IMG/VR virus record: IMGVR_UViG_3300034021_001440
Location: 1-64,000 of that record
Direction: 5' to 3' (one strand)
From: a virus
Length of the DNA: 64,000 nt
Below are positions 1,763 through 47,137 of the stretch, piece by piece. The position numbers were made by a program, and so were the translations under genes. The notes beneath the pieces are model-generated. The model was not told where the DNA came from and ran no database searches. It saw only the letters and a program-made list of their open reading frames with translations. Position 1 is the first letter of the stretch, and each line of letters begins with the position of its first letter.

Positions 1763-3700
1763 ATGGACACATCAACCAACATCTCCCAGCAACTTAAAGA
1801 TGACTATCTTGCCTACAGCATGGCTGTCATTGTGGGCCGAGCAATTCCGTCCCTCACTGACGGCCTGAAACCAGCTCAGCGCCGTGTCCTCACCGCAATG
1901 AAATGGCTAGGGCTGAAACCCGAGGGTCCCTTTATGAAGAGTGCCCGTGTCGAAGGGGAGACCATGGGCAAGCTGCACCCTCACGGTGGGGCATATGGCG
2001 TCATGGTCACATTGGCAGCCCCGTGGAATAATAACCTTCCTTTAATCTCTGGGCAGGGCAACTGGGGGTCGTCGGTCGATGGTGCCGCTGCGAGCAGGTA
2101 CACGGAATGCAAACTGTCCCCATTTGCCTGGGAGTGTCTCCTTGCCGATTCCGATACGTGGGTTACCACAGAGAATTACGATGGGTCCCTGCAGGAGCCC
2201 GTGGAGCTAAACGTAAAAGTGCCTACCGTTTTGTTAAACGGGCAGGATGGCATTGGAGTTGGTTTCGCCACAAAGATCCCCCCACACTCGCTTCGCGACA
2301 TCTGCGACGCAATCACAAAAGGGTCCCCTTTAGTTCCATCATTCCCTACCGGCTGTGACATTATTCGAGATGACGGACTTGATGCCTACACTAACACTGG
2401 CATTGGGGGCCTCCGCCTCCGTGCTCGCTGTGAGACTGTTGAAACGGGCACAGGTCGTAAGGCAAAGACAACGCTTACGTTCACAAACCTCCCCGCAAGC
2501 ACAAACCCGGAGAAAGTCGGGGAGCAAATTGCGGCGGCGCTAGAAAAAGGGTCCCTTACCGGAATCACCAATGTCATTGACGAGTCTGATCTCACCGGAG
2601 ACCGTATCGCGGTTACTCTTAAGTCTGGCACCGATATCCAACTGGCCATCCGCCAACTCTACCACTACACTGACCTGGACACTAAGTATTCGGCGCGGTT
2701 GCTGGTTGTGGACGGGGTCAAACCAGTCGAACTCTCTCCAAGTGAGCTTCTTGCGCGTTGGCAGACATGGCGACTGGATCGGTTGGGTGCGAAGTTCCAA
2801 TCCGAACTAGACGGTGCAGAACACCGTTTGGAAATCGTTCGTGGTTACCTCAAAGCAATCGACAAGATTGATGCTGTTATTAAAATTATTCGAAACGCAG
2901 CTTCACCAAAAGAAGCCCTGATTGAACTCGTCTCCAACAAAACACTCAAATTCACTGCGGATCAGGCCCGTGCGATCCTGGAAATGAGACTCCGGGCATT
3001 AACCAACCTCGACTCTGAGGAACTAGCAACCGAAGAGGGTACCCTTAAAGAGCGAATTACAGAGCTTGACACCCTAATCAAGGACGAAAAGGCACGCAAA
3101 GGGTATATGATCAAGGAAATCAAGGAGATTGGGGTACGGCATGGCGAGAAACGCCGCAGCGAACTGATTGATCCACCCGAAGGCCTTGTCGTGGAGAAAG
3201 GATCCTCACGGCCTGCGGCGCCGGCAAGACCGCGATTCATAAAAATTGACATCAAGCGGGGCGTGGCCGAACAAGCGAAAGGACCACGAGGAGCCATCAT
3301 ATTGGAAAAGACTGATAAACTTATCACACTTACAGAAGATGGCACGCTCAAAAAACTTCCCCCTAACTACAAGGGTCCTCTTGGCATGGGACTCTCTCCT
3401 GTGTTACTTGCAAAGAAAGAAACTGATGTGGCAGAACGCAAATACCTCGCAGTCTTCACACTCGGGGACCAGCTCAAAGCGATGATGGTTGCTGGGAGTG
3501 ACTTGTGTAAGGTTACTTCAAAAGGAAAACGCGTCATCCCTGAAGAAGCGCAACTTCTGTACTTTGGCGAAGGTTCCTATGTGGTTCCCTGGGCCTCCAC
3601 TCGCAAGAAAAAAGTGGAACTGTTCCCTGTGAGCACCAAACAAGGTCGCCCTGGCGCTCGCGGCATCAAAGTAGCCACCATCACCGAACTCACCCTGTGA
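1763..3700 (+). CDS. Type II DNA topoisomerase, A subunit (gp52/GyrA-like)
   Basis: A 645-residue DNA cleavage-religation subunit of a type IIA topoisomerase. Recognisable family blocks are SLTDGLKPAQRRVL (residues 30-43), KLHPHG (70-75), GQGNWGS (97-103) and AASRYTE, with Arg112 and the catalytic Tyr113. The C-terminal third has a short FIKIDIKRG...LEDGTLKKL-type region, reminiscent of a reduced pinwheel rather than the full GyrA tail. T4 gp52 is shorter (about 440 residues). The helix that carries the quinolone-anchor residues in GyrA is two residues shorter here. The ATPase partner is not in the window. No Shine-Dalgarno precedes the ATG. Its role is relief of supercoils during phage replication. 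Confidence 0.93.
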   Translation: MDTSTNISQQLKDDYLAYSMAVIVGRAIPSLTDGLKPAQRRVLTAMKWLGLKPEGPFMKSARVEGETMGKLHPHGGAYGVMVTLAAPWNNNLPLISGQGNWGSSVDGAAASRYTECKLSPFAWECLLADSDTWVTTENYDGSLQEPVELNVKVPTVLLNGQDGIGVGFATKIPPHSLRDICDAITKGSPLVPSFPTGCDIIRDDGLDAYTNTGIGGLRLRARCETVETGTGRKAKTTLTFTNLPASTNPEKVGEQIAAALEKGSLTGITNVIDESDLTGDRIAVTLKSGTDIQLAIRQLYHYTDLDTKYSARLLVVDGVKPVELSPSELLARWQTWRLDRLGAKFQSELDGAEHRLEIVRGYLKAIDKIDAVIKIIRNAASPKEALIELVSNKTLKFTADQARAILEMRLRALTNLDSEELATEEGTLKERITELDTLIKDEKARKGYMIKEIKEIGVRHGEKRRSELIDPPEGLVVEKGSSRPAAPARPRFIKIDIKRGVAEQAKGPRGAIILEKTDKLITLTEDGTLKKLPPNYKGPLGMGLSPVLLAKKETDVAERKYLAVFTLGDQLKAMMVAGSDLCKVTSKGKRVIPEEAQLLYFGEGSYVVPWASTRKKKVELFPVSTKQGRPGARGIKVATITELTL

Positions 3701-3786: not shown

Positions 3787-5214
3787 ATGGCAACTTCTAA
3801 CGTCTACACCAAGGCTCCCTACGTCATCCTCCCCGGAGGTAACGCCCTCAAGGGAGTCACTGGTGTTCAGGATTCGATCAACGTTGTTCAGTCAATGCTG
3901 GAAGGCGGCGTCATTGACAAATACGAGTCCCCCTCCAACATCGTCAAAACTCGCCAAGAAACATTCACTCGCAACGTTGAGTTTCTGAACAATGTCGTCG
4001 GTGCCAAAACCTACGAAGGTTTCGTTGACTCTGCCCTCATCAAGGACTATATCACCTACGCCCGCACCACCTACAAGGCCGAGAGCTTCGTGCTCCCTGC
4101 CGACGTGTACGGTGCTCCGATGACCTACAACTCGCAGACTGGCGGGTTCCAGCTGCTGCAGGCACCTACCGTCGTGACCCCTGTGGCTCCCACCGTGGTT
4201 GCTCCGGCCGTGCCAACCTACACGGTAACCCTGCTCGATCCTTCCGTCACGGCCACCGAAGGCCAAGACCTGGTGATGCGCTTCAAGCTCGACACCAAGA
4301 ATCACAACGGGGTCTCCTTCCGCCCGAGTTTCACCAACCTGGGCAACCAGTTTGTCCAAGCCGACGTGGTCGGCGCTGAGACTCGTTCCAACTACATCTT
4401 CCCCGACGTTCGCTTCACTGCTGGCTCCGACTACGCTGAGATTCGCCTGCAAACTGTCGACGACACGATGAAGGAAACGGACGAAGCCGTCCGTCTTGAG
4501 GGTGGGGCCTCTCTGAGCAGCGCCTACAAGCTGAACTTCGTCGGTGCTTCCACCGTCACCCTGCAGGACAACGACTGGGCTGCCACCAGCGTGACCAACG
4601 TCACCATCAACGGCAACAACAACAACGTCAACGTGCTGAACAACTTCGGCACGATCACGGTGGACAACCGCACCTACGTTGACATTGCTGGCGATAACAA
4701 CAGCAACGTTCTGGCCGGCACTGACCGTGACGACTGGATCAAGGGGCTCTTCGGCGACGACACCCTCAGTGGTGGCGCTGGCAGCGACGTTCTCACTGGC
4801 AACCAGGGCAACGACACCCTGAGCGGTGGCACTGGCACTGACACTCTTTGGGGTGGCTTCGGTGACGACATCCTCATCGGCAACCAAGACGATGACATTC
4901 TGTATGGCAACGACGGTGCTGACGTGCTCTGGGGCGGTTTCGGCAACGACATGCTCATTAACAACACTGGCAACGACATCGTTTATGGCAACGCAGGCGC
5001 CGACTCCTTTGTTCTCTGCGCTGGCCAGGACACCTTCAAAGACTTCAACCTCGGCGAGGGTGATAAGATTCTGGTCTTCGCAGATCCGAAGTACACCATT
5101 GGCCAGAATGCTCAGGGCTATGTCGAAATCAACCGTGGCGACAACAAGACCACCCTGGAAGGCGTGACCTTCGCTGGCTTCGACGCTTCCCGCGCCATCC
5201 AGTTCATGGGTTGA
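3787..5214 (+). CDS. RTX-type calcium-binding repeat protein
   Basis: A 475-residue protein. Residues 1-125 form an unknown N-terminal domain. A Pro/Val-rich linker follows (about 128-145), then a Calx-beta-like segment (about 147-260, with TVTLLDPSVTATEGQDL and TLQDND). Residues about 305-425 carry RTX nonapeptide repeats (GGAGSDVLTGNQGNDTLSGG and similar), the usual Ca2+-binding parallel beta-roll, with a short cap at the end. RTX proteins are usually secreted or surface proteins. Here there is no signal peptide and no type I secretion gene nearby, so a virion-associated or lysis-released adhesin is plausible. It has its own TTTACC/TACAAT promoter and sits alone between replication genes. 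Confidence 0.85.
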   Translation: MATSNVYTKAPYVILPGGNALKGVTGVQDSINVVQSMLEGGVIDKYESPSNIVKTRQETFTRNVEFLNNVVGAKTYEGFVDSALIKDYITYARTTYKAESFVLPADVYGAPMTYNSQTGGFQLLQAPTVVTPVAPTVVAPAVPTYTVTLLDPSVTATEGQDLVMRFKLDTKNHNGVSFRPSFTNLGNQFVQADVVGAETRSNYIFPDVRFTAGSDYAEIRLQTVDDTMKETDEAVRLEGGASLSSAYKLNFVGASTVTLQDNDWAATSVTNVTINGNNNNVNVLNNFGTITVDNRTYVDIAGDNNSNVLAGTDRDDWIKGLFGDDTLSGGAGSDVLTGNQGNDTLSGGTGTDTLWGGFGDDILIGNQDDDILYGNDGADVLWGGFGNDMLINNTGNDIVYGNAGADSFVLCAGQDTFKDFNLGEGDKILVFADPKYTIGQNAQGYVEINRGDNKTTLEGVTFAGFDASRAIQFMG

Positions 5215-5843: not shown

Positions 5844-6640
5844 TGACTGCTGACAACATAGTTCTCGCAACCAACAGCATGCGGTCCTCAGTGTCTTCGC
5901 TGAGGAAAAAACTCTCGGACCTCAAAGTCTCTGTCGAAAAGTTTGACGCAGACCTGTCCAAGCTCGATTCAAAGTTTGACAACGTTCTCACCCAGGTCGA
6001 AATCTATAAGTCCAAACTTGAACGCGAGATGGGTCGTGAAGTGCGTCGACTCGAACATGAGTTGGCGCTTTTGCGTAAGGAGATGCCCGAGAGTGTGACA
6101 ACTGACGTCTCACCGAGCGAACTCAAGATTGCCTCAACTGTGGCTATCCTTGATAGCATCCTCCGCCTCATCTCCGGCACGGCCACAGACATTCGCCTCA
6201 TCTCAGAGGCATTCCTGTTTCCTGCCGTGATTGAGCGGGTGGTTTTCGGAGATCAAGAAGCCTATTTCCTGACAGAAGTGCCTCCCTCTGCGGCCCTCGT
6301 GATTGCTCGCGGTCGCGAATACGTCGACTGGATGCGGACTCAGTATGAGACTCACTTGACAGACCCCGACACCTGGGCTGATGCTGTCGATTACATGCGT
6401 GAGTGGTGGGCCAACGACGCCTTGCCTCTGCTCTACGGAGCTCGCGACGAACAGTGGGACATTGATGCCCCCTTCTCCCTCCCGGAGATGCTTCTTTGGC
6501 GTGACTCTCCCGGAGATCGCCCGCTGAACTTCTCCACAATTTTTGAAGCCTACGAAATTTACCGTAAACACAAGGATGCCGTCTATGATTCTACAGGACT
6601 TCGCGAGTTTGAGCTCAAGCAATTCCTCAACAAAGGATAG
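5843..6640 (+). CDS. Hypothetical protein with N-terminal coiled coil
   Basis: A 265-residue protein. Residues about 12-80 form a long charged heptad-like helix (KKLSDLKVSVEKFDADLSKL and onward), followed by a globular C-terminal part rich in Trp and Tyr (residues about 150-225). Its ATG overlaps the stop codon of the upstream gene, so the two are probably made together. No signal peptide or membrane segment is seen, and no family is recognised. A structural or scaffolding role would fit the coiled coil, but nothing in the sequence proves it. Confidence 0.75.
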   Translation: MTADNIVLATNSMRSSVSSLRKKLSDLKVSVEKFDADLSKLDSKFDNVLTQVEIYKSKLEREMGREVRRLEHELALLRKEMPESVTTDVSPSELKIASTVAILDSILRLISGTATDIRLISEAFLFPAVIERVVFGDQEAYFLTEVPPSAALVIARGREYVDWMRTQYETHLTDPDTWADAVDYMREWWANDALPLLYGARDEQWDIDAPFSLPEMLLWRDSPGDRPLNFSTIFEAYEIYRKHKDAVYDSTGLREFELKQFLNKG

Positions 6641-6905
6641 GCGTCAGCACTCTCGCCCACTCAATCCGGTCGATCACCTCATTTCCAAAGTTGGTATTGG
6701 CATGGTGGACACCGTTGAGCGTTATTACCAGAAATACTGTGAGAAACCCAACGATGCCAATGCCCGAGCCTACTGCCTGTGGCGTCTGCGCCTCCACCGT
6801 CGCCTGAAAAATGACAAGGCACTCCTTGAGTCAATCAATGAGGCTCGCAATCTCGGGCTTCACGATGAGAGACCGGGCAAACTCTGCTGGGATTGCGAGT
6901 TCTAG
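6585..6905 (+). CDS. Hypothetical protein, TPR-like helical
   Basis: A 106-residue product if begun at the ATG at 6585, which has AAGGA (6572-6576) about 8 nt upstream and overlaps the previous gene by 56 nt. The most natural-looking protein starts later, and an alternative ATG at 6702 gives 67 residues. The C-terminal 67 residues (YYQKYCEKPNDANARAYCLW, then a helix-rich segment ending in CWDCEF) resemble a single helical hairpin of the TPR kind. The final CxxC could bind metal. The start is uncertain. No family is firmly recognised. Confidence 0.6.
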   Translation: MILQDFASLSSSNSSTKDRRQHSRPLNPVDHLISKVGIGMVDTVERYYQKYCEKPNDANARAYCLWRLRLHRRLKNDKALLESINEARNLGLHDERPGKLCWDCEF

Positions 6906-6912
6906 GGTAAAA
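6905..6912 (+). promoter_or_regulatory. GGGTAAAA element
   Basis: GGGTAAAA shares its first G with the TAG stop at 6903-6905 and lies 31 nt upstream of the ATG at 6944. Confidence 0.6.
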
Positions 6913-6943
6913 GCAGAGTAACTTCTTCAAGTCTCCAGGTGCC

Positions 6944-7891
6944 ATGATACCTCGTACAGCGAAAGTGGCAGCGTATGTTCAGAGTACCTTCACCAACCCT
7001 CAATACCTAGACTACGGCAACGTTATTCTCAACGGTTACGTTACCACGGCAAACGCCGTCTCCACTGCAGGAGCCTCTGGCGGTCTCGACACTCTCTCAA
7101 TCACAACTGCCGGGACCAACTACGCGAACGGCACTTATACCAACGTCTACCTCAGTTCGATCACGGGTAGCTTCGGATTTGCCACAGTGACCGTGGCTGG
7201 TGGTGCTGTGACTGGCGTCGCCATTACTTCTGCCGGAGAGAACTTCACCGTCGGTGATACCATCAAACTGAGCAACATCACTCGCGCCTCCGCTGGCACC
7301 ACCGCAGTCCTGACCGTGGGCGCCGTGGACACTCGCATCGTGCAACCCGTCTTCAAAGGCTGGACCACGAACTTTTCCAGTTACTACACCGAGATTCCCC
7401 CGGTTGCCGCCCCTTACGCCAACACCTACCCTGGCATGGACGCTGGCGGTTTCGAGTACGTCGTTCACTCGTACAAGCCCCCGACCGGCACCATTTCCTC
7501 GATCGGCTTCACTGGGCCGATGGGCTCGGGCTACACTGATGGCATTTACACTGGGGTTGCCACAACCACAGGAGCTTTTGGCTCTGGCGCTACTCTCAAC
7601 ATCGTAGTCGCTGGCGGCCAGGTTCAAACTGCCTTCCTCAACAACGTTGGTGCCGGATACCCTGTGGGAACGACCCTGGGCGTCGCTGGCGGGGCAATTG
7701 GCCCTGGCACCGGTTTCTCCGTGGTTGTCACTTCAATCAGCACCACGAGCCTCGGCGGTGAGCCCTTCTGGTCACAGCGCCCCGTGAACGCTCAAGCCCA
7801 GGTCAACTCCCTCTTTCCGCTCCCCGGCGTGGGCGGCTGGATCTACCCGGTCGGAGACAGCGCCGTTCCGCCGCCGATCGGCACCCTCTAA
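6944..7891 (+). CDS. Virion-type protein with two glycine-rich beta modules
   Basis: A 315-residue protein built around two copies of a module. Each reads roughly as G-x-x-Y-x-x-G-T-Y-x-x-V, then ATVTVAGGAVTGV and a final G-E/A-x-F/Y-x-V-G-D/T (residues about 50-125 and 180-265). The same module occurs twice inside the tail sheath at 13163. The composition (Gly, Thr, Val, Ala) and the GGGTAAAA element upstream fit a virion surface protein, although it lies among replication genes just before the polymerase. Its exact place in the particle is unknown. Confidence 0.65.
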   Translation: MIPRTAKVAAYVQSTFTNPQYLDYGNVILNGYVTTANAVSTAGASGGLDTLSITTAGTNYANGTYTNVYLSSITGSFGFATVTVAGGAVTGVAITSAGENFTVGDTIKLSNITRASAGTTAVLTVGAVDTRIVQPVFKGWTTNFSSYYTEIPPVAAPYANTYPGMDAGGFEYVVHSYKPPTGTISSIGFTGPMGSGYTDGIYTGVATTTGAFGSGATLNIVVAGGQVQTAFLNNVGAGYPVGTTLGVAGGAIGPGTGFSVVVTSISTTSLGGEPFWSQRPVNAQAQVNSLFPLPGVGGWIYPVGDSAVPPPIGTL

Positions 7892-7893
7892 GG

Positions 7894-7921
7894 TTTACTC
7901 GGGGCAAACCACCCCTATAAT
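7894..7921 (+). promoter_or_regulatory. TTTAC-type promoter 4 (polymerase)
   Basis: TTTACT (7894-7899), 16 nt, TATAAT (7916-7921). The -10 ends 6 nt before the ATG at 7928, so the message is predicted to be leaderless. A GGTTTACTCGGGGCAAACC inverted repeat overlaps the -35. Confidence 0.82.
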
Positions 7922-7927
7922 ACAAAC

Positions 7928-10708
7928 ATGAAAAACACATCGTCTATGCGAAAAACCTCGCTCGGATACCCAGTCCTGGATGAAGAGATTCATTCCAGGA
8001 TTTTTGGTGTAGAAACGCCCGCGCCCATGTCGCGCCTGGCCAAGCAAAAGGCTGAGAACTTGCTGAAGGAGTTTGGGGTGGCGACTCCGGTTGACTACCC
8101 TGACCACCTCTACGACGGCCCTCTTCCTCTTCCTGAACTCAAAGCTCCCGCCCTGCGTGAGCACTTTGAGACCATCGCAAAGGAACAAGTCGGCCAGTAC
8201 AAGGGGTGGGCCGATGACTTTGCAAAAGCAAAACTCCCAGAGTTGCCCCCGACAACCGAACTTGTCTTTGAAAGCGGCTGGCGCCGTTATGAAAAAGTGC
8301 GAGGAAAGTGGAAAGTCACCAAGGTTCCGTACCCACTTGAAGACGCTTTCACATTTGACACCGAGACCTTTGTGCACGGTGGTGCGTTTCCCATCATCGG
8401 CACCGCACTCTCTGCCAAAGCAGTTTATGTCTGGCTCGCTGCCGAACTTGTCGATCCGTCCCTCCCTGAGGACGAGTGGGACCAGTACGACCTGATCCCT
8501 GTTGGCGAGAACCGTTTCATTGCCGGTCACAACATTTCCTATGATCGCGTGCGTGCCCGCGAAGGGTACTCCCTTGACCGTGTCAAACCAGAAAACTTTT
8601 ACTTTGACACTCTGTCCGCACACATTGGCGTGAGTGGCTTGGCTTCGGGCCAGCGTTGGCTCTATGTTCTCGCTGGCAAAGATCCCGAGGATTTGACGGA
8701 TGAGGAAAAGCGCAAGTTGCGTTATGCACCCAAGTGGCTGGACGAAGGTTCCACCAACTCCCTGGTTGCCACGTACAACTTTCACGTTTATGAGGTGCGC
8801 AAGTACTTCGGTGACGACGTACAACCCCTTGGCGCCGGAGACAAAGCCGTTCGTGACATCTTCGTCAAGGCTACGCACCTGAGTCAGATTCGGCAGATGC
8901 TGACGCAGGCTGTTGACTACGCTGTCAAAGATGCTTTCTACACTGCTGAGCTCTTCCAGGCAATCTGGCCGAAGTATCTCGATGCCACTCCCAGCCTGGT
9001 TGCCCTCTGTGGGCATTACCACCTGAATGGATCCATCGTTCCCCTCGTACCCGACTGGGAAGACTGGATCAAGGGTGTAGAGCGAGTGTTCGATGAGCAC
9101 AATGCCGAAATGACGAAGCTATGCCAGGACCTTGTCTGGCAATACTACGAAGAATGGCGTGATCGCTACTTCGCAGAACCCGGCATGGCCGAGTCTTGGA
9201 TTGCCAAGGATCCCTGGCTGTCTCAACTTGACTGGGAAGTGAAGTCGGAGAAAGGCAAATACGCACATGTTCCGAATTGGGTGCGTCCGTTCGTCAAAGA
9301 CCCCGACACTCACATCGGAGTCAAAAGCAACTTGTCCCACCTCCTTCTCAAACTGCAGTGGGAAAACACGCCGATGATCCTGACAAAGGACATGGGCTGG
9401 TGTTTTCACAACGAAGACGGTGCTCTGACAAAGATCCCTCACCCGAAAGGAAACGGGGATAACGTTGGCGGTGTCCTTTCCAAAGACTTCGTCGATGACA
9501 TGAAGGTGGGCCGTCTAAACAGCGACCTGCCCGAAGCAAAGCGTGCGCTTGAGATTGCAAACGCAGTGTCCTACTGGACTTCGGTCCGGAAACGAGTTAT
9601 GGACCGTATCTTTCTTCCAGCAGCCAATCCCCACGGCGCTGACGCCCTGGTCACCCTTCCCGAAATCCTTTGCCACGGCACCGTCACTCGACGCACCGTG
9701 GAGAGCCTCATGGTGACAATGTGCTCCACCAAAAACTGGAGGATCGGGACAGAACTAAAGTCTCGAGTCCAAGCTCCTGACGGGTGGAAGATTGTCGGCG
9801 CTGACTTTGACGGTCAGGAGATGCAGATTGCCTCAATCTATTCCGACAAATGGGAAGGTGGTCACGTCGGTTGCTCACCGTTTGGATACAATGTGCTGAG
9901 TGGAAGCAAGGAGGCGGGCACGGACCCGCACTCCGCGCTCGCGAAGCTCGCGGGCGTAGATCGCGACACTGCCAAGATTGCCGGCTTTGCTGTGCTTTAT
10001 GGCGCTGGTGTTCGCGCTGTGCAAACCTACATTCGTCGAAAGTATCCAGAGAAGTCTCCAGCAGAAGTCAAAAACTTTGCGTATCGCATTCTTGAAGGAA
10101 AGAAAGGCAAACAGCGCAACGGTCTCTATGAAGGAGGGAGCGACAGCGGTTGCTTCAACTTTATGGAAGAGATTGCGATGCGGTCGCGTGTCCCAACGCT
10201 TCCGTGCCTTGGAACCAAGATCTCAACCGCAATGCGTCCCGCTGCTGTCGGCGACGATTTCAAAACCGGTCGCGTCAATTGGACCATTCAGTCTTCGGGT
10301 GCCGAGATCCTGAGTATCATGCTCACCGCCGTGCACTGGTTGGCTGCTGAGTATCGAATCCCCTGTCGATTCGTGCTCAGTATTCACGACGAGATCTGGT
10401 TCATGACTCCCGAGCGATATGCAGAGCAATTTGCTGTGCTTTTTCAGATCGCTCACATGTACACCTGGTCCCTTTTCCACTCGGCGCTGGAGATCCCTGA
10501 CCTTCCGCTTTCCCGAGCCTATTTCTCCTCTGTCGCTATCGACACTCGCCTTCGCAAATCACCGACTGAAAAGACGGTGACCCTTTCCAATCCTGGGGGA
10601 GAGAAGGAAGAGCCCGGTGTGGAATACTCAATGATGGAACTTTCCGAAATCGGTGCCATCGACAAACTCAAAGTTCGCTTCAACGCAATCCAAAAAGGAA
10701 TGATCTGA
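7928..10708 (+). CDS. DNA polymerase, family A, mitochondrial Pol gamma type
   Basis: A 926-residue replicative polymerase with a proofreading 3'-5' exonuclease. Exo I has Asp144 and Glu146, Exo II is GHNISYDR (Asp206), and Exo III is Tyr331-x3-Asp335, so all acids are present. Polymerase motif A is GADFDGQE (Asp626). Motif B (O-helix) is Arg679-x3-Lys683-x3-Phe687-x3-Tyr691. Motif C is HDE (820-822). Blocks such as GLASGQRWLY, GTDPHS, LYGAG and RVNWTIQSSGAE match Pol gamma far better than E. coli Pol I or T7 polymerase. The N-terminal LGYPVLDEEIHSRIFG also fits. Met at 7946 is an alternative start. Confidence 0.95.
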   Translation: MKNTSSMRKTSLGYPVLDEEIHSRIFGVETPAPMSRLAKQKAENLLKEFGVATPVDYPDHLYDGPLPLPELKAPALREHFETIAKEQVGQYKGWADDFAKAKLPELPPTTELVFESGWRRYEKVRGKWKVTKVPYPLEDAFTFDTETFVHGGAFPIIGTALSAKAVYVWLAAELVDPSLPEDEWDQYDLIPVGENRFIAGHNISYDRVRAREGYSLDRVKPENFYFDTLSAHIGVSGLASGQRWLYVLAGKDPEDLTDEEKRKLRYAPKWLDEGSTNSLVATYNFHVYEVRKYFGDDVQPLGAGDKAVRDIFVKATHLSQIRQMLTQAVDYAVKDAFYTAELFQAIWPKYLDATPSLVALCGHYHLNGSIVPLVPDWEDWIKGVERVFDEHNAEMTKLCQDLVWQYYEEWRDRYFAEPGMAESWIAKDPWLSQLDWEVKSEKGKYAHVPNWVRPFVKDPDTHIGVKSNLSHLLLKLQWENTPMILTKDMGWCFHNEDGALTKIPHPKGNGDNVGGVLSKDFVDDMKVGRLNSDLPEAKRALEIANAVSYWTSVRKRVMDRIFLPAANPHGADALVTLPEILCHGTVTRRTVESLMVTMCSTKNWRIGTELKSRVQAPDGWKIVGADFDGQEMQIASIYSDKWEGGHVGCSPFGYNVLSGSKEAGTDPHSALAKLAGVDRDTAKIAGFAVLYGAGVRAVQTYIRRKYPEKSPAEVKNFAYRILEGKKGKQRNGLYEGGSDSGCFNFMEEIAMRSRVPTLPCLGTKISTAMRPAAVGDDFKTGRVNWTIQSSGAEILSIMLTAVHWLAAEYRIPCRFVLSIHDEIWFMTPERYAEQFAVLFQIAHMYTWSLFHSALEIPDLPLSRAYFSSVAIDTRLRKSPTEKTVTLSNPGGEKEEPGVEYSMMELSEIGAIDKLKVRFNAIQKGMI

Positions 10709-10896
10709 TGAAAAAACAAAAGAAATCCCGTGTCGAGTCTGTCGGTGTGCTCCTTTTCAAGGGCGTCATCGACACCTACTACCTCACGGTCCCCTACGAC
10801 AAAAAGAATCGTGTGATTCCTTCCTCGGTTGAGTGTGCCTATAACTCTCGCTACTTTGACCTGGACCAGACAGTCAACATGCTCAGATCACTATGA
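10708..10896 (+). CDS. Small hypothetical protein
   Basis: A 62-residue protein beginning MKKQKKSRVESVGVLLFKGV, with a very basic N-terminus and then alternating hydrophobic/aromatic residues (YYLTVPYDKK), which suggests a small beta-rich fold able to touch nucleic acid. Its ATG overlaps the polymerase stop (TGATG), so it is translationally coupled to the polymerase and may be a replication accessory factor. That role rests only on position. No family is recognised. Confidence 0.65.
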   Translation: MKKQKKSRVESVGVLLFKGVIDTYYLTVPYDKKNRVIPSSVECAYNSRYFDLDQTVNMLRSL

Positions 10897-11123
10897 CACT
10901 CCCCCTTCCACTGGACCCTGATTTTCGCAAAGCGGCAGTTGGGTTCTGGTTGGATGATGTTGAAGACCGAATCCAGCTCAATCGCGTCGATGATGCAGAA
11001 AAAAGCTGGCAAGAAGCCAACTTGATTTACCTTTCACTTCCCGCAGGCTGCGGCGATATGTCTCTCGAAGACCAAATTGCTGCAATGCGGGTAAAACTTG
11101 ATAACATCTCACAGAAACTATGA
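10893..11123 (+). CDS. Small hypothetical protein
   Basis: A 76-residue, acidic, mostly helical protein (GFWLDDVEDRIQLNRVDDAE, then EDQIAAMRVKLDNISQKL). It overlaps its upstream neighbour by four bases (ATGA) and overlaps the tail chaperone downstream in the same way. The GGGTAAAAC element for the tail genes lies inside its 3' end (11089-11097), so this gene marks the switch from replication to virion genes. No function is recognised. Confidence 0.65.
   Translation: MTLPLPLDPDFRKAAVGFWLDDVEDRIQLNRVDDAEKSWQEANLIYLSLPAGCGDMSLEDQIAAMRVKLDNISQKL
11089..11097 (+). promoter_or_regulatory. GGGTAAAAC element inside a gene
   Basis: A full GGGTAAAAC match within the coding end of the 76-residue gene, 22 nt upstream of the tail chaperone ATG at 11120. 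This is the usual spacing although there is no intergenic gap. Confidence 0.6.
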
Positions 11124-11446
11124 GAACTATTTCCAATGACGGTGAACCCGCAGCACCTGTGACCAAGAAAACTCCCCAGTCTAAACTTCAAACGTTTTCC
11201 ACCACCATTTCCGATGGTCGTGAGATCGTGATCCGCGAAATGACAGGTCGTGACCTCATCTACATGGAGAAAGACCTGAGCAAGTCAGGCGATGTGGAGA
11301 AGGGCATGAAAATCATCGAGCGTCTGATTGTGGGCGATGACAAAATCACCTACGACGAGATTCTCGACCTGGGCGTTCGTGACTTCAAAAAACTCAGCGA
11401 TTTAGTTGGTGAAGCCAGCGGCGCTGACGAAAACGACCCAAACTAA
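11120..11446 (+). CDS. Tail assembly chaperone, short product (gpG-like)
   Basis: A 108-residue protein with the features of the short tail assembly chaperone. A disordered, basic N-terminus (about 1-25) is followed by a small beta-start, REIVIREMTGRDLIYME (about 36-53), and then helices (IIERLIVGDDKITYDEILDL). In lambda, P2 and many other phages this protein and its frameshifted longer form coat the tape measure during tail assembly. The last two sense codons and the base before them read C-CCA-AAC, followed at once by TAA, a canonical -1 slippery site. A second frame open from 11428 supplies the extension. No tape-measure gene follows directly. Confidence 0.8.
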   Translation: MRTISNDGEPAAPVTKKTPQSKLQTFSTTISDGREIVIREMTGRDLIYMEKDLSKSGDVEKGMKIIERLIVGDDKITYDEILDLGVRDFKKLSDLVGEASGADENDPN

Positions 11447-46615: not shown

Positions 46616-47137
46616 ATGAAGCACAAACACCATATAAAACCCAGATACGAGGGTGGTTCAGACGACCCTGAAAACCTTGTGGAGTTGACTCCAATTCAAC
46701 ACGCAATGTGGCACTATGCCGAGTGGTTGAGGAAAGGAAATTGGCAAGACCTTGCTGCGTATAGAACTCTGGCGGGTAGAGCGCCAAAGGAGGAAGTAAT
46801 CAGAGGATTGGTTTCGGAGTCGAACCGGTCCAGGAAGGGTGAGAAAAGAAGTCCCCGACCCTTGGAAGTTAGACTAAAAATCGCAAAGTCCGTGAAGGAA
46901 AGTCATGAGAGAGCACGAAAAGAAGTCAAACCAAAACCAAAACCAAAACCACCTGCGAGAGGCAGAGGCAGAAAACCAAAACCAATCGAATTGACATCTC
47001 CCTGCGGTCAGTTTGCTTTTTTATTCCCTTCTGCCAAAGAAGCGGGAGCAATACTGGGACTATGGGATGGCAATATTACTAAAGTTGCCCGTGGGGAATG
47101 GAAACAGACGGGCGGATGGACTGCTCGCTACGTGTAG
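46616..47137 (+). CDS. HNH homing endonuclease
   Basis: A 173-residue free-standing endonuclease. The HNH nuclease is at the very start: HKHHIKPRYEGGSDDPENLV, then ELTPIQHAMWH (His5/His6, Asn at about 20 and His at about 29). A Lys/Pro linker (about 101-122, KPKPKPKPP) leads to a C-terminal NUMOD1-like DNA-binding domain (FPSAKEAGAILGLWDGNITK, residues about 136-155). The gene is A-rich compared with its neighbours. It starts 33 nt after the large terminase and has its own non-late promoter. Together with the GIY-YIG gene it brackets the terminase pair. Confidence 0.88.
   Translation: MKHKHHIKPRYEGGSDDPENLVELTPIQHAMWHYAEWLRKGNWQDLAAYRTLAGRAPKEEVIRGLVSESNRSRKGEKRSPRPLEVRLKIAKSVKESHERARKEVKPKPKPKPPARGRGRKPKPIELTSPCGQFAFLFPSAKEAGAILGLWDGNITKVARGEWKQTGGWTARYV

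Follow-up and report, generated by a model that had tools for sequence, protein, structure and literature searches.

The window analyzed here comprises positions 1 to 64,000 of a 112,418-bp IMG/VR virus record, which is incomplete and, judged against the phage S-CBWM1, ends inside nrdA. Its plus strand carries an intact open reading frame with zero internal stops (7928..10708; ATG at 7928, stop at 10706-10708) for a Pol gamma-type family A DNA polymerase of 926 amino acids. An alternative ATG at 7946, the position where the S-CBWM1 homolog's own start aligns, may be the true start. The upstream neighbor on the same strand is a gene for DNA gyrase/topoisomerase IV subunit A (1763..3700), as is likewise the case in S-CBWM1. 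A gene for an RTX calcium-binding repeat protein of 475 amino acids (window 3787-5214) lies between the two and is confined, among 76 loci, to the window contig and its identical copy. Downstream, three short genes follow on the plus strand, each overlapping its predecessor: a 62-residue gene (10708..10896) with a homolog in S-CBWM1 gp78, which overlaps the polymerase stop codon in TGATG, a conserved but faster evolving 76-residue gene (10893..11123) with an ATGA overlap, and a tail assembly chaperone-like gene of 108 residues (11120..11446; match to PF10109 below cut-off) with which the tail and virion block begins. The polymerase gene adjoins tail genes and has no replication cluster around it.

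The polymerase gene is under strong purifying selection, with dN/dS ratios of approximately 0.04-0.08 against ten relatives, although these ratios are rough, with dS near saturation. No other family A polymerase was found in the window's virus record, and each phage record yielded one family A match. In three relatives the polymerase gene is split by insertions of about 0.7-1.7 kb (L058:10146-10949, L067:about 7239-7950, and L075:4171-5827 and 6353-7011), two of them with HNH-endonuclease-like reading frames; a search of the gene-interrupting insertions against Rfam at the gathering threshold gave no intron match. The polymerase gene of the phage Mic1 is split at motif A by a group I intron (L085:7809-8081; Rfam RF00028, 45.5 bits, E 1.9e-10), whose score is just below the RF00028 gathering score and which was the sole insertion to score in a relaxed Rfam search.

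The proteins of the record are colinear with those of S-CBWM1 over most of its length, including gyrA, polymerase, tail genes, sheath, portal, capsid, terminase, PhoH, exonucleases and nrdB, with identities of 66% for the capsid, 65% for the portal, 51% for the sheath and 54% for the terminase. By gene order and protein comparison, the window phage is a relative of S-CBWM1, among the Aokuangvirus relatives. A high-light-inducible-like protein (G000:109206-109406; PF00504, E 3.5e-4, just under the cut-off) is consistent with a cyanobacterial host, which we infer for this phage. A free-standing gene for an HNH/I-HmuI-like homing endonuclease (window 46616-47137) adjoins the terminase gene.

Searches of IMG/VR yielded close relatives of the polymerase at 75 loci, along with 44 loci of the S-TIM5 type and 3 of the Mic1 type, and the order of the polymerase gene and its neighbors is also kept in the IMG/VR relatives. 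The plasmid search gave no match, and there was none to the first 25 kb of the window in a megablast against phages or to A-HIS1 when used as a query in IMG/VR. A scan of genome contigs gave one match, a truncated Pol gamma gene with 59% identity in a Microbacteriaceae bin (L090, CALGUV010000157.1), which is probably misbinned phage DNA, the other reading being an actinobacterial host.

Domains, motifs and phylogenetic placement of the polymerase

The mitochondrial type of 3'-5' proofreading exonuclease domain (DNApol_Exo, PF18136) was identified in the window polymerase with 199.8 bits against a cut-off of 26.7 (E 6.8e-59), and Pfam and motif alignment place it at 8126..8977 on the plus strand. 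Its DEDD residues are D144 and E146 in Exo I, D206 in Exo II and D335 in Exo III. PF18136 was absent from 14 control genomes, from T7 gp5 and from E. coli Pol I. The Pfam match to DNA_pol_A (PF00476) was weak (E 6.5e-10), PF01612 remained below its cut-off and no 5'-3' exonuclease domain was found with Pfam. The three polymerase motifs were located on the plus strand by alignment: the motif A aspartate D626 in GADFDGQEM (9803..9805), motif B with K683, F687 and Y691 (9974..10000), in which F687 occupies the position of human Tyr951, and motif C with H820, D821 and E822 in SIHDE (10385..10393). The spacer is short, with 54 residues (447-500; 9266..9427, plus strand) as compared to 249 in human Pol gamma.

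Likewise, the lineage-specific blocks named in the preliminary description are present in the reading frame and align with Pol gamma as had been claimed. Thus, DPWLSQLDWE aligns with DPWLSQLDWT in yeast, RVNWTIQSSGAE with RVNWVVQSSAVD in human, and FVLSIHDE, GLASGQRWLY and the N-terminal LGYPVLDEEIHSRIFG with the Pol gamma segments FCISIHDE, GLSSFQRSLW and LDIQMLSRGLHEQIFG, respectively. The block GGSDSGCFNFMEEIA (residues ~736-754; 10133..10189, plus strand) is Pol gamma-specific and lacking in T7 and Pol I. In a MAFFT alignment of the window protein with T7-like, Pol I-like and other phage polymerases, the blocks PHPKG..NVGG, GTxTRRxVE, GGSDSxxFNxMExIA, RVNWxxQSSG and a C-terminal RK were common to the window, human and yeast proteins, and were absent or different in the T7-like and Pol I rows. 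With the exception of the spacer, the likeness to human Pol gamma spans residues 7-899.

Comparisons with solved structures gave the same picture. A phmmer search against all PDB chains recovered only Pol gamma at E<=0.01 (E 3e-104 to 7e-110), with yeast Mip1 as the best match (7e-110), followed by human, mouse and chimeric Pol gamma structures. The best 60 PDB matches of the T7 gp5 control included T7, Taq, Bst, Klenow and Pol theta, and no Pol gamma. An AlphaFold model of the window protein built with 22 homologs (pLDDT 77.7, pTM 0.77) was compared to the PDB with Foldseek; the first 36 matches were all Pol gamma chains with TM scores of 0.68-0.82, and the next ones, Pol I, T7 and G20c, scored 0.31-0.36.

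A maximum-likelihood tree of the family A polymerases had been named beforehand as the check on this assignment, with a position inside the Pol I or T7 clade as the outcome that would speak against it. In the tree inferred with IQ-TREE (LG+C20+F+G4 PMSF, 44 rows, 864 columns), such a placement was not obtained; the phage and mitochondrial Pol gamma sequences instead formed one clade with 100/100 support. That the gene codes for a T7-like or bacterial Pol I-type polymerase, with a likeness to Pol gamma that is convergent or confined to the catalytic motifs, would fit its membership in family A, its weak PF00476 match and the fact that T7-like polymerases are the commonest among phages, but is virtually inconceivable and was rejected given the tree clade, the wide TM gap in the fold search, the exonuclease family and blocks exclusive to Pol gamma, identities of 17.5-19% to T7 and E. 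coli Pol I as compared to 34.0% to yeast and 35.9% to human Pol gamma, and the AU tests, in which forcing the phage sequences apart from the mitochondria cost 111 log units when placed with the T7-like (p=5e-41) and 105 log units when placed with the Pol I polymerases (p=1e-10).

The PDB and Pfam matches, the fold search and the tree all bear out the proposal that a polymerase of the Pol gamma type along its whole length is encoded by a phage. Very probably, the gene codes for the enzyme that replicates the genome of this uncultured, S-CBWM1-like cyanophage, namely a family A polymerase of the Pol gamma type with predicted polymerase and proofreading activity.

Putative partners in replication

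Outside the window, at G000:103014-105001 (equal to L177:1115-3100), lies a gene for a P-loop protein of 661 amino acids that matches DUF5906 (PF19263, E 3.1e-6) and also PHROG 25243, “DNA primase.” When used as a tblastn query against 50,697 phage records, the protein gave exactly nine matches, namely S-CBWM1 and S-TIM5 with two records each, A-HIS1, S-TIM54, S-TIM61, S-TIM66 and Mic1, and the A-HIS1 protein as the query returned the same nine. These are exactly the Pol gamma genome records among the 50,697; the remaining matches in the Pol gamma search were two polg records of a single gene each and two T7-like records matched in part. A reciprocal test in IMG/VR, in which 15 contigs were found via the helicase-like gene, recovered Pol gamma in all six contigs over 115 kb. 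Of the ten contigs with a size of at least 89 kb, nine carried it, and the five below that size did not; G002, G008 and G022 among the 15 had turned up earlier in the Pol gamma search. Both genes are also present in the larger contigs L222 (277,244 bp), L209 (201,260 bp) and L219 (189,900 bp), in which the Pol gamma open frames have about 980 codons.

An alignment of the DUF5906 proteins from five lineages revealed that the Walker A motif, a DD Walker B motif and a motif-C-like N are kept, as in the SF3 helicases. The structure model was poor (pLDDT 55), and there was no match in sequence to solved structures. The protein annotated as a helicase in Mic1, Mic1_89, is distinct from the DUF5906 protein and belongs to the Dda-like SF1 type. 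Genes for FEN, helicase and primase have previously been noted to be shared among four Pol gamma phages (PMC7156551; PMC4928673). We consider the DUF5906 protein to be a likely replication partner of the polymerase, with a helicase role that is predicted from its motifs and gene annotation. Since every complete phage genome with Pol gamma also has its gene, one hypothesis is that strands are opened by this SF3-like P-loop protein in place of a Twinkle-type helicase. The pairing thereby names a replication partner that can be tested experimentally.

Members of the DnaB/Twinkle family were identified neither in the nine Pol gamma phage records, with T7 as a positive control, nor in the 15 helicase-selected IMG/VR contigs. 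Likewise, no T7-type RNA polymerase was found in the phage genomes searched, again with T7 as a positive control. Since the window's record is incomplete, absent genes could sit in its missing part, but they are also lacking from the complete 139 kb genome of S-CBWM1. The set of polymerase, Twinkle and RNA polymerase thus appears not to be held together in the phage lineage as known today. The exact pairing of Pol gamma with a helicase-like protein of a non-Twinkle type argues against the joint donation of the polymerase, the helicase and the RNA polymerase by one phage.

The features of the animal Pol gamma holoenzyme, a long spacer and POLG2, are not seen in the window phage. No accessory subunit gene had been noted next to the polymerase, and this observation holds more widely: the HGTP_anticodon domain, as in POLG2, was found neither in G000 nor in the other phage records. 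With the accessory-binding spacer almost gone and the search for an accessory-like gene negative, the phage polymerase most likely acts without an accessory subunit. It would replicate the phage DNA as a single subunit, in the manner of yeast Mip1, which works without such a partner.

Tyr951 in human Pol gamma is largely responsible for the incorporation of dideoxynucleotides (PMC6264456). At this position, S-CBWM1, A-HIS1, A-HIS2 and each of the 15 rows from the window's subclade have phenylalanine, and yeast, human, S-TIM5 and Mic1 have tyrosine. Tyr951 is therefore not a defining residue for phage Pol gamma, being absent from the A-HIS phages and S-CBWM1, a difference that has been noted previously (PMC7156551). 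As F687 replaces human Tyr951, the phage polymerase would be expected to discriminate better against ddNTPs, and thus to be more resistant, than the mitochondrial enzyme.

We also considered the possibility that the 62- and 76-residue proteins, named as candidate partners in the preliminary description, assist the polymerase as processivity or accessory factors. The starts of their genes overlap, the two genes directly follow the polymerase in 74 and 73 of the 76 loci, respectively, and both are under purifying selection, with dN/dS values of 0.03-0.07 for the 62-residue gene, a constraint like that on the polymerase. However, S-CBWM1 and L075 gave no match to the 76-residue gene, and the Pol gamma neighbors in S-TIM5, Mic1 and A-HIS1 include no counterpart of the 62-residue gene; among known phages, the 62-residue protein resembles only S-CBWM1 gp78 (score 107 as compared to a shuffled mean of 24.5). 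Furthermore, the block runs on into the tail genes, with the tail chaperone-like gene linked equally, and L005 and L057 have approximately 560 extra bases between the polymerase and the 62-residue gene. While the genes are real and their place is conserved, nothing links them to the polymerase; the lineage distribution and the tail-block context speak against such a role, which we regard as very unlikely.

Origin of the mitochondrial enzyme and comparison with known systems

It has long been asked where the mitochondrial replication enzymes came from, and the phage Pol gamma proteins are, to our knowledge, the sole relatives of the mitochondrial polymerase outside the eukaryotes. Mic1 grouped with yeast and human in all six trees, with support values of 99/90, 90/72, 100/99, 100/99, 78/98 and 84/98; besides the main tree, these comprise five variants, with a T7-like outgroup, a Pol I outgroup, no outgroup, the polymerase half and the exonuclease half. 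Furthermore, the Mic1 protein is the best phage match of yeast Pol gamma and is 40.1% identical to yeast and 41.9% to human Pol gamma, whereas its identity to the remaining phages compared does not exceed 33.5%. These findings point to a descent of mitochondrial Pol gamma from within the cyanophage enzymes, from a Mic1-like lineage, with the phages as donors, which we find credible but stop just short of calling probable. Against it, monophyly of the phage sequences was not rejected by the AU test (p=0.27), and the root within Pol gamma shifts with the choice of outgroup. The eukaryotic rows are only two, yeast and human, both partial and from opisthokonts, and were built from PDB alignment segments picked by their similarity to the window protein; the Mic1 row was joined from two annotated CDS pieces.

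The opposite direction, in which phages took Pol gamma from eukaryotes on one or more occasions, is compatible with the topology alone if the root is placed on the mitochondrial stem. It is, however, unlikely, given that diversity is much greater among the phage sequences than between the two mitochondrial ones, that the former occur in unrelated types of phages (the small siphophage A-HIS1, the myophages S-TIM5 and S-CBWM1, and Mic1) and that every phage Pol gamma pairs with the same non-mitochondrial helicase-like gene.

Returning to the phages as donors, we tentatively suggest a broader scenario, in which we place somewhat less confidence than in the descent itself. Mitochondrial Pol gamma would have arisen from inside the cyanophage radiation, with a Mic1-like lineage as its nearest relative, and the phage polymerase would be part of a fixed two-gene replication pair with the DUF5906 helicase-like ATPase. 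Mitochondria may then have taken up the polymerase without this partner and coupled it to a Twinkle of the T7 type, so that the animal mitochondrial replisome would represent a chimera of two phage lineages. The proposal that the window phage bears on a viral origin of the mitochondrial replication enzyme is supported in part: the shared clade is firm, but the AU test is compatible with either donor direction, and it is Mic1, not the window's own subclade, that comes nearest to the mitochondria. The relatives identified here enlarge the phage Pol gamma family from a handful of isolates to more than 100 contigs, and a rooted test of donor and recipient is therefore feasible.

The preliminary description was also right that Pol gamma had been reported in a few cyanophages. 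Chan et al. in 2011 reportedly described it in A-HIS1 and A-HIS2, Sabehi et al. in 2012 in S-TIM5 and Xu et al. in 2018 in S-CBWM1. The Mic1 enzyme has also been published, with a shared origin proposed from a neighbor-joining tree (PMC7156551; PMC4928673). The window gene is one more member of this already published group. The exact co-occurrence with DUF5906, the absence of a Twinkle-type helicase and the maximum-likelihood tests are additions that were not found in the literature compared, a comparison outside of which the original reports from 2011, 2012 and 2018 lie.

Among the known systems, T7 gp5 and E. coli Pol I share family A membership and motifs A-C with the window polymerase, but lack the Pol gamma blocks and fall outside the clade, and the exonuclease of the E. 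coli enzyme belongs to a different family. Human POLG and yeast Mip1, 34-36% identical over 815-826 aligned residues, have the same fold and domain order, and Exo I-III and motifs A-C are common to the mitochondrial and window enzymes. The window enzyme differs in having F687 for Tyr951 and in lacking the long accessory-binding spacer of animals, and the phage genome, as read, is unlike the mitochondrial system in being without genes for Twinkle, POLRMT and POLG2. The Pol gamma proteins of S-TIM5, Mic1, A-HIS1 and A-HIS2 are 29-38% identical to the window enzyme and share its exonuclease family, blocks and clade; the DUF5906 gene is common to the window phage and these lineages where the genome is complete. 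Mic1 and S-TIM5 have a tyrosine in motif B, unlike F687 in the window enzyme, and motif C of the S-TIM5 type reads HDS rather than HDE (S-TIM5 itself, L084, and L103, L106, L107, L123 and L128). The closest known system is that of S-CBWM1, a cultured Synechococcus myophage with a complete circular genome, whereas the window phage is an uncultured contig. Its gp77 (ATW62761.1) differs from the window enzyme by an insert of about 36 residues between motifs A and B, and a 76-residue gene is not detectable in its genome. Yet, gp77 is a full-length homolog with 56.8% identity and the same phenylalanine in motif B, S-CBWM1 has the same DUF5906 gene, and the order of its genes is like that in the window: gyrA, two to three genes, the polymerase, a 60-residue gene and the tail genes.
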